Assembly (NCBI RefSeq): GCF_000424445.1 | Contig: NZ_AUJX01000004.1 | Location: 124,001-188,000 of the forward strand | Direction of reading: 5' to 3' | DNA from: Oribacterium sp. NK2B42 | GTDB lineage: Bacteria; Bacillota; Clostridia; Lachnospirales; Lachnospiraceae | DNA: 64,000 nucleotides | Part shown: in pieces, positions 61,966 through 62,777 of the stretch | How the letters are laid out: every line of letters starts with the position of its first letter | How positions within the stretch are numbered: the stretch's first letter is position 1 | Notes under the pieces: generated by a model | The model's input: the letters and a program-made list of their open reading frames with translations, nothing else | Databases searched by the model: none | Told to the model about the DNA's origin: nothing | Made by a program: the position numbers and the translations under genes

Positions 61966-62397
61966 TTAAATTCCGAATTCCTGTGCCCAGTATGTTCTTC
62001 CGTTCTGAGTTGTTGTTGAGATTGCGCATGTTGTGAAATCAGGCTTTAAGATGTTTGCTCTGTGTGTAGGTGATGCCATCCATGCGTTAACTACGTCGTC
62101 TGCTGTGTTGTAGCCTTCTGCAAGGTTCTCGCCGTACTGAAGATCTGCATTTACTGTGTACCAGTCTGTTCCGTCCGGTCTTGTGTGTGAGAACTTAGTT
62201 GTGATCTCGTTTGCTCTTACTACTGATGTTGTCTCAAGTGATGCGCTGTACTGAACTGCTGAAAGTCCGTTTGCCATTCTTATCTCATTAACCTTTGCAA
62301 GTGCCTGAGCCTCAAGGTCAGTCTGTGCAAAAGATGTAAGTGTCATCATTACTGCGAAGAAGATTGCTACGAATATTGTTCTAACAAGGTTTCTCAT
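61966..62397 (-). CDS. Secreted CAP-domain (SCP/PR1) protein
   Basis: A 143-residue protein. A signal peptide (IFVAIFFAVMMTLTSFAQ) is followed by a complete CAP domain: VNEIRMANGLSAVQ, KFSHTRPDGTDWYT, GENLAEGYNTADDVVNAWMASPTHRANI (shown here in parts GENLAEGYNT and WMASPTHRANI) and YWAQEFGI. The conserved His and Glu of the CAP cavity are present. It lies directly behind two GEMM-I riboswitches, so a cyclic dinucleotide should control it. Purine-rich GAAAGGAAAAG precedes the start. Confidence 0.93.
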   Translation of the reverse strand: MRNLVRTIFVAIFFAVMMTLTSFAQTDLEAQALAKVNEIRMANGLSAVQYSASLETTSVVRANEITTKFSHTRPDGTDWYTVNADLQYGENLAEGYNTADDVVNAWMASPTHRANILKPDFTTCAISTTTQNGRTYWAQEFGI

Positions 62398-62414
62398 TTT
62401 CTTTTCCTTTCAAG

Positions 62415-62476
62415 TGCAGCTGGCTGACCTTTCGGTCCCTGTAGCTTTGCGTCGCCGGATTTCTCCGGGTTTGCTA
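62415..62476 (-). promoter_or_regulatory. GEMM-I riboswitch, downstream copy (A20)
   Basis: On the minus strand the core reads GCAAACC, stem CCGGA-GAAA-TCCGG, GACGCAAAGCTACAGGG and AGCCAGCTGC, the layout of the cyclic-di-GMP-I aptamer: GNRA loop of P1b/P2, GACGCAAAGC core and closing AGCC. The base two places before C22 (position 20 in Vc2 numbering) is A, as in GEMM-Ib aptamers that bind 3',3'-cGAMP. The aptamer ends close to the CAP gene start. Confidence 0.82.
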
Positions 62477-62492
62477 TTTAAGTGAATCGGGA

Positions 62493-62530
62493 TAAAAAAA
62501 TTGGCACCGGGTTTTGTACCCTGTGCCAGT
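62493..62530 (-). terminator. Terminator between the two riboswitches
   Basis: On the minus strand TGGCACAGGG pairs with CCCGGTGCCA across a short loop, followed by TTTTTTT. It lies between the two aptamers and so can act as the expression platform of the upstream one. Confidence 0.8.
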
Positions 62531-62598
62531 TAACCTAGAACCTTCTTGAATTAATTCTGATTCGAGAACTAACCTTCGGAGCTCTGCTCCATGAAGAT

Positions 62599-62660
62599 TG
62601 CAACTGGCTGGCCTTTCGGCCCCTGTAGTTTTGCGTCGCCGGATTTCTCCGGGTTTGCCC
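62599..62660 (-). promoter_or_regulatory. GEMM-I riboswitch, upstream copy (G20)
   Basis: Almost identical to the downstream copy: GGGCAAACC, CCGGA-GAAA-TCCGG, GACGCAAAACTACAGGG and AGCCAGTTGC. Position 20 is G, as in canonical c-di-GMP aptamers. It is followed by the terminator at 62493-62530 through a spacer of about 70 nt. Confidence 0.82.
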
Positions 62661-62749
62661 AACTAAAATCTAGGTTGGATCTTAGTTTAAAGAGAAGCGA
62701 ACCGTTTTTTCTGGTTCCTTTCTTTTCTCATCTCCTCTTTACAATTCTA

Positions 62750-62777
62750 ATTATACTATAGATTTTTTAAATTGCAA
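62750..62777 (-). promoter_or_regulatory. Promoter of the riboswitch-CAP transcript
   Basis: On the minus strand the -35 is TTGCAA (62772-62777) and the -10 is TATAAT (62750-62755), 16 bp apart, upstream of both aptamers. Confidence 0.65.

Follow-up and report, generated by a model that had tools for sequence, protein, structure and literature searches.

Tandem c-di-GMP-I riboswitches with unlike bases at position 20 upstream of a CAP-domain gene in Oribacterium

Introduction

Tandem riboswitches of the c-di-GMP-I (GEMM-I) class have been counted as 347 doublets and 12 triplets (PMC9481103), and Bc3-5 is a triple tandem of this class (PMC4759541). In these accounts such tandems are treated as elements of identical ligand with a pseudo-cooperative response. 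Position 20 of the aptamer has been described as a selectivity factor and not as a hard filter (PMC9262584). An adenine at this position (A20) marks the cGAMP riboswitches of Geobacter, and the exchange A20G switches Gmet_0970 from cGAMP to c-di-GMP (PMC6456294). The Geobacter A20 aptamers are cGAMP-selective (PMC8835794, PMC6456294), while an A20 aptamer of D. acetoxidans gained affinity for cGAMP with 'perhaps a slight weakening' for c-di-GMP (PMC9481103). A20 aptamers can thus retain c-di-GMP binding (PMC9481103, PMC9262584). Hypr enzymes differ from canonical diguanylate cyclases in having Ser or Thr in place of Asp at a selector position (PMC6456294).

Here we describe a locus of Oribacterium sp. 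NK2B42 in which two GEMM-I aptamers, one with G20 and one with A20, precede a gene for a CAP-domain protein. Like known c-di-GMP-I tandems it places its aptamers one after another upstream of a single gene and has a terminator that belongs to the first of them (PMC9481103, PMC4759541), but its pockets differ at position 20 and its second element lacks a terminator. With the GEMM-Ib riboswitches of Geobacter it shares A20 within a GEMM-I fold and, for some of them, the occurrence as tandem pairs (PMC6456294). Geobacter tandems may also be mixed at position 20. Unlike those, the Oribacterium A20 copy occurs in a genus in which no Hypr enzyme was seen in three genomes. In cluster 3 of D. acetoxidans the partner of the A20 aptamer is an AdoCbl riboswitch (PMC9481103), whereas the A20 copy of Oribacterium lies beside a G20 copy on one transcript. 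The layout also resembles the bi-mechanism SAM-II/SAM-V riboswitches, in which the first element stops transcription and the second acts at the ribosome-binding site; the Oribacterium pair differs from these in using the same aptamer class twice and for a second messenger (PMC9481103). The bi-mechanism entries in Table 1 of that paper are SAM pairs only, and its authors state that not all tandems were evaluated for this property (PMC9481103). Finally, as in Cd1 of C. difficile, a transcriptional OFF switch whose antiterminator takes the pocket C, the corresponding strand of the Oribacterium element is predicted to enter an antiterminator; Cd1, however, is a single aptamer, and a hairpin like the P0 described below is not mentioned for it in the accessible part of its description (PMC9262584). 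We found no earlier account of a G20/A20 c-di-GMP-I tandem in the literature searched, which comprised search listings and passages of PMC9481103, PMC12452182, PMC4759541, PMC6456294, PMC8835794 and PMC9262584.

Results

The analysed stretch of DNA (the window) comprises 64 kb. A riboswitch-plus-CAP module occupies 62777-61966 on its minus strand and consists, in the direction of transcription, of a promoter-like site, a hairpin (P0), a G20 aptamer, an intrinsic terminator, an A20 aptamer, a Shine-Dalgarno sequence and the CAP gene (Table 1). The region 62415-62660 given in an earlier note on this DNA contains the aptamer cores, but the 5' hairpin and the promoter-like site, up to about 62777, lie outside it. 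The promoter-like site is weak when taken alone, because the scan found four sites in the region where shuffled sequence would give 2.2. Three related leaders (L011, L017, L028) show a TATAAT at the corresponding place. The terminator scan lists an inner stem (62520-62503), which is lengthened to 62527 in the folds. The encoded protein matches PF00188 with 64.3 bits (cut-off 21.1, E 2.3e-17), and its hydrophobic N-terminus, read by eye from the translation, resembles a signal peptide.

Table 1 Features of the riboswitch-plus-CAP module (positions in the window)
Feature	Positions	Strand	Description
Sigma-70-like promoter (putative)	62750..62777	-	TTGCAA, 16 nt, TATAAT; 10/12 matches in a consensus scan
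P0 hairpin (predicted)	62661..62687	-	Directly 5' of the upstream aptamer; 7-nt loop with AACCUA
Upstream c-di-GMP-I aptamer	62596..62669	-	RF01051, 51.8 bits, E 3.2e-7; G20 at 62659
Strand X	62593..62608	-	Covers the 3' end of the upstream aptamer, including the 3' strands of P3 and P1 and the pocket C; supplies the 5' half of the predicted antiterminator
Strand Y	62525..62545	-	3' half of the predicted antiterminator; overlaps the 5' arm of the terminator
Intrinsic terminator (predicted)	62494..62527	-	Stem-loop 62527-62503, U tract to 62494; between the aptamers
Downstream c-di-GMP-I aptamer	62412..62485	-	RF01051, 52.9 bits, E 1.7e-7; A20 at 62475
Shine-Dalgarno sequence	62405..62409	-	AAGGA; 7 nt before ATG, just past the P1 3' strand of the downstream aptamer
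CAP-domain gene	61966..62397	-	143 aa; PF00188; signal-peptide-like start

The earlier note had described two near-identical aptamers by eye, with a terminator between them and one CAP gene behind, and had proposed a search with the Rfam GEMM-I covariance model. This search, applied to the whole window, returned both copies above the gathering score of 35 bits, each aligned over the full model (1-87/87), and no other match above this score. A 60-nt direct repeat of 93% identity and 184-nt spacing underlies the two aptamers. Over their 74 nt they are alike at 58 positions, and the differences are mainly found in the 5' strand that holds position 20.

For the numbering we take model position 11 to be position 20 of Vc2, as placed from the model pairs 12-37 and 13-36, corresponding to G21-C46 and C22-G45 of Vc2; model position 83 is taken as the pocket C, C92. 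The upstream pocket then reads G20, A47 and C92, and the downstream pocket A20 with A47 and C92 kept. The downstream copy thereby has the GEMM-Ib trait, A20 in a GEMM-I fold, at the level of sequence. A misalignment of position 20 in the earlier, by-eye reading was considered and ruled out, since the covariance-model alignment gave the same G20/A20 assignment. A better fit of either copy to a related Rfam family was also rejected: none outscored RF01051 (four lower-scoring overlaps from the same clan were left out of the listing), and the match to IMES-2 reached only 17.5 bits against a cut-off of 54.7. A mobile-element origin of the leader was likewise discarded; the phage and plasmid collections gave one short match each (42 and 40 nt), both falling inside the downstream aptamer by query positions.

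Matches over the cut-off were found in 13 of 17 Oribacterium genomes (35 matches, and one below the cut-off). Twelve genomes account for 15 complete tandem pairs. In addition, L005 and L009 are single aptamers, and L028, L031 and L032 are upstream copies that lie at contig ends. All 15 complete pairs are mixed at position 20, 13 of them in the order G20-then-A20 and two, in genomes G001 and G002, in the order A20-then-G20, while both singles and all three contig-end copies have G20. The mixed pair is therefore not a slip in one genome. In G001 and G002 the upstream copy is recognisable by eye, from its P0 hairpin and its P3 sequences, as the same element as elsewhere, and thus the bases, not the elements, have been exchanged.

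In a tree of the CAP proteins (14 rows) the G001 protein groups with that of the single-aptamer genome G009 (support 100/99), and 11 G-then-A loci together with L005 lie on the other side of the midpoint root from G001/G009. Three of the 15 pairs are not represented in this tree, namely G012 (where the contig end truncates the gene), G002, and the pair on contig C7 of G005 (gene without Pfam match). Since the pairs share descent, the 15 mixed cases amount to at least one inherited arrangement and one exchange, not to 15 independent events. The end branches of the CAP proteins measure about 0.3-0.4 changes per column. In the G005 C7 locus (L018) the mixed tandem precedes a gene for a 200-aa protein (1229-627, minus strand) with a similar signal-peptide-like start and no Pfam match at E 0.01; perhaps the leader was co-opted here by a different gene. 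In the downstream A20 aptamers of L017 (G006) and L018 GGCGC replaces the otherwise kept GACGC.

The genome of strain NK2B42 (G000) itself holds five aptamers over the cut-off: the pair in the window, a near-identical pair on contig C9 and a single one on contig C34 (L005). They belong to three riboswitch-plus-CAP modules, on C3 (window 61966-62777), C9 (L001/L004) and C34, whose CAP genes are near-identical (136 to 141 matching positions out of 144, counting the stop). The single aptamer of L005 (1501-1574) has G20, lacks a terminator and is a chimera, its informative positions agreeing with the upstream copy in the 5' part and, all but one, with the downstream copy in the 3' part. Its sequence is as would be expected from recombination between the identical cores with deletion of one repeat spacing, and such a natural deletion product would be useful as an experimental control. 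The two-step design is not indispensable, because the same genome keeps this single-aptamer module without a terminator. A search of the named genomes for relatives of the CAP protein gave eight loci, all in Oribacterium. In Oribacterium sp. KHPX15 all five relatives found sit at contig ends, which suggests repeats that broke the assembly.

Within the family, 112 of 299 genomes have RF01051 matches (G000 and G001 included). Position 20 was read by a regular expression in 110 loci drawn from the best 150 matches listed, and leaning to high scorers; 117 raw hits, minus three spurious ones and nine seen in two loci, left about 105 sites, and 10 of the loci gave no hit. Among these sites about 16 (~15%) have A20. 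Outside the genus, 53 family genomes have two or more matches and contain 11 tandem clusters (within ~400 nt), seven of them G/G, one C/G (L118 on contig C14 of G260, whose first aptamer has the C) and three with both G and A, namely A/G in G092, G/A on C86 of G263 and G/A/A in G261. The share of mixed clusters (3/11) is close to the 26% expected for independent draws at the family rate of A20. Strict mixing was therefore seen only in Oribacterium. The triple on C26 of G261 (L124/L207) and the double on C86 of G263 (L125/L208) are close-packed arrays, with aptamers ~84-94 nt apart, and precede open reading frames whose low-complexity sequence resembles that of surface proteins.

These numbers bear on the explanation that position 20 has simply drifted, with both aptamers binding c-di-GMP about equally and the pair giving only a steeper response, as proposed for other c-di-GMP-I tandems. 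The family rate of A20 and the near-random mixing outside the genus are what drift would produce, and the shared descent of the 15 pairs leaves few independent events. Nevertheless, mixing is complete in Oribacterium despite the long end branches of the CAP proteins, and the exchange of bases between otherwise recognisable elements in G001 and G002 means that the unlikeness has outlived two opposite changes. We therefore consider drift unlikely, while still a serious competitor.

Fold predictions for the 15 leaders give the first element a terminator/antiterminator platform throughout. Strand X pairs with strand Y in every leader, with duplex energies of -14.2 to -16.4 kcal/mol that were matched by only 3 to 23 of 2000 shuffles of Y. 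In transcripts stopping 8 nt past Y all seven outer X-Y pairs are present in the minimum-energy fold of all 15 leaders. In full-length folds the difference between forced terminator and forced antiterminator is at most 4.9 kcal/mol; the terminator is favoured in 14 leaders and the antiterminator in G001, by 0.8 kcal/mol (the folds ignore pseudoknots and ligand). The small energy gap together with the complete antiterminator of the cut transcripts fits a bistable switch. X and Y are nearly invariant across the 12 window-type leaders, so that support for the pairing there consists of conservation; in G008, G001 and G002 it is maintained through one-sided changes. These predictions, in 15/15 leaders, give the upstream element the appearance of an OFF switch of transcription.

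A hairpin at the place of P0 folds in all 15 leaders despite differing stem sequences. Its loop is complementary to 62538-62532 (CUAGGUU in the window), which lies between the two halves of Y. By eye, both partners of this match have changed together in G008 and again in G001/G002, an argument for a real contact. The contact may serve to hold Y off X once the ligand is bound.

In the window the start codon follows the pocket C of the downstream aptamer at a distance of 18 nt, which leaves no room for a terminator after this aptamer. From this position a translational step would be expected. The Shine-Dalgarno sequence of the window has an unpaired probability of 0.23 with the 5' strand of the aptamer and 0.76 without it, since a longer P1 could cover it. 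Such translational control by an extended P1 was tried as a candidate and rejected: the complementarity looked good by eye in several relatives, but the blocking was not significant against shuffled 5' strands in 11 of the 12 window-type leaders. With 60 shuffles per leader, the fraction at or below the observed value was 0.15 in the window and 0.03 to 0.90 across the 12 leaders; at most 5% of the shuffles reached the observed value in one leader, and more than 60% did so in six. As shuffled 5' strands block about as well, the proposed translational step rests on position. Sequestration was computed for 14 of the 15 leaders (all except G002). The Shine-Dalgarno sequence lies inside a predicted hairpin in G001 (unpaired probability 0.21) and G008 (0.00), and visual inspection showed a similar one in G002 and G009.

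The downstream aptamer might accordingly be a non-regulating leftover of the duplication that made the pair, with only the upstream terminator switch working. The weak predicted blocking of the ribosome site agrees with this, as does the L005 chimera, in which recombination between the copies seems to have happened. A leftover would however hardly keep a score between 45.7 and 56.3 bits in each of the 15 pairs, nor an invariant 5' strand, UAAAUAGC, in the 12 window-type leaders, and we judge this explanation quite improbable.

The earlier note cautioned that position 20 alone does not fix specificity; nor does it by itself determine affinity. The published A20 aptamers range from cGAMP-selective to c-di-GMP-binding (PMC9481103, PMC8835794, PMC6456294). 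In strain NK2B42 24 of 43 GGDEF matches have the strict motif [GAS]G[DE]E[FY] and the canonical Asp, one (L046) has the strict motif with Asn, and the remainder, several of them read by eye, have altered motifs or are partial; Ser or Thr at the selector position was found in none of the 43. Of eight matches in G001, six are intact, all with Asp, one is degenerate with Asp and one is a fragment short of the selector position. G014 has 28 matches, of which 15 are intact, all with Asp, and five are fragments short of the selector position; the remaining eight, degenerate or partial, carry Asp, Asn or Glu, except L229, which has no GGDEF motif and aligns a Ser. A Hypr-type GGDEF with intact motif was thus seen in none of these three genomes. 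A DncV-like NTase over the cut-off was found in 0/17 Oribacterium genomes, the one weak match (G001) scoring 15.4 bits against 24.9. For synthases of 3',3'-cGAMP of a known kind, the result is hence negative for Hypr GGDEF proteins in G000, G001 and G014 and for DncV in all 17 genomes, and the mixed pair is kept where neither was seen. A SMODS CD-NTase was found in 1/17 genomes, that of strain NK2B42, where it adjoins a 2TM effector in a CBASS-like arrangement (L065:1396-2840); it was thus found in none of the other 11 genomes that hold complete mixed pairs.

Against this background the possibility of a second ligand was weighed. The earlier note suggested that the pair might read two different cyclic dinucleotides or be a two-input gate. 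In such an arrangement one transcript would carry a G20 pocket for c-di-GMP and an A20 pocket for 3',3'-cGAMP, or for an adenine-containing dinucleotide unknown so far and made by an unrecognised enzyme; the CAP protein would be made only when both are low (a NOR gate of transcription plus translation), and selection would keep both kinds of pocket present, whichever comes first. The mixed pair is indeed kept even with swapped order in G001 and G002, A20 is the mark of the Geobacter cGAMP riboswitches and A20G converts Gmet_0970 (PMC6456294), and the genome does have one CD-NTase. That enzyme is CBASS-like and confined to 1/17 genomes, however, no DncV-like protein passed the cut-off in any of the 17, and no intact-motif GGDEF with Ser or Thr was present among the 43, 8 and 28 matches of G000, G001 and G014. 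3',3'-cGAMP as second ligand is weakly supported, and a two-ligand gate seems very unlikely to us. A gate of two steps acting on a single secreted protein is well supported in its form, with a terminator between the aptamers and a second aptamer beside the start codon, but most likely answers to one ligand; for two ligands, support is lacking in the Hypr and CD-NTase searches.

Discussion

We favour, at a probability of about one half, the reading that c-di-GMP turns off a single secreted CAP protein in two steps, in which the A20 and G20 pockets would be set at different c-di-GMP levels. In the first step, when no ligand is present, the 3' end of the upstream aptamer would pair with the terminator's 5' side and so let RNA polymerase read through. 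With ligand bound, the upstream aptamer would hold its 3' strand, so that the terminator could form and transcription would stop. In the second step the full-length transcript would present the second aptamer, the P1 3' strand of which adjoins the ribosome-binding site, and ligand could still shut down translation. Both aptamers most likely bind c-di-GMP; the A20 pocket would make one of them less selective and probably differently sensitive, and the two steps would then answer different levels of the messenger.

The synthesis of c-di-GMP appears plentiful in strain NK2B42, since 24 of its 43 GGDEF matches combine the strict motif with the canonical Asp. The direction of switching is supported by the fact that the strand predicted to be taken by the antiterminator holds the pocket C, as described for Cd1 (PMC9262584). 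A staged c-di-GMP response at two levels of control is thus the most economical reading, and a two-ligand gate is possible but not favoured.

Because A20 occurs at about 15% of the family sites read and no intact Hypr enzyme was seen in three Oribacterium genomes, our results suggest that A20 alone should not be read as the sign of a 'cGAMP sensor' in this family. The mixed G20/A20 pairs of Oribacterium, kept in 15/15 cases and in either order, are a natural experiment on position 20, in which the choice of ligand stands against the tuning of sensitivity.
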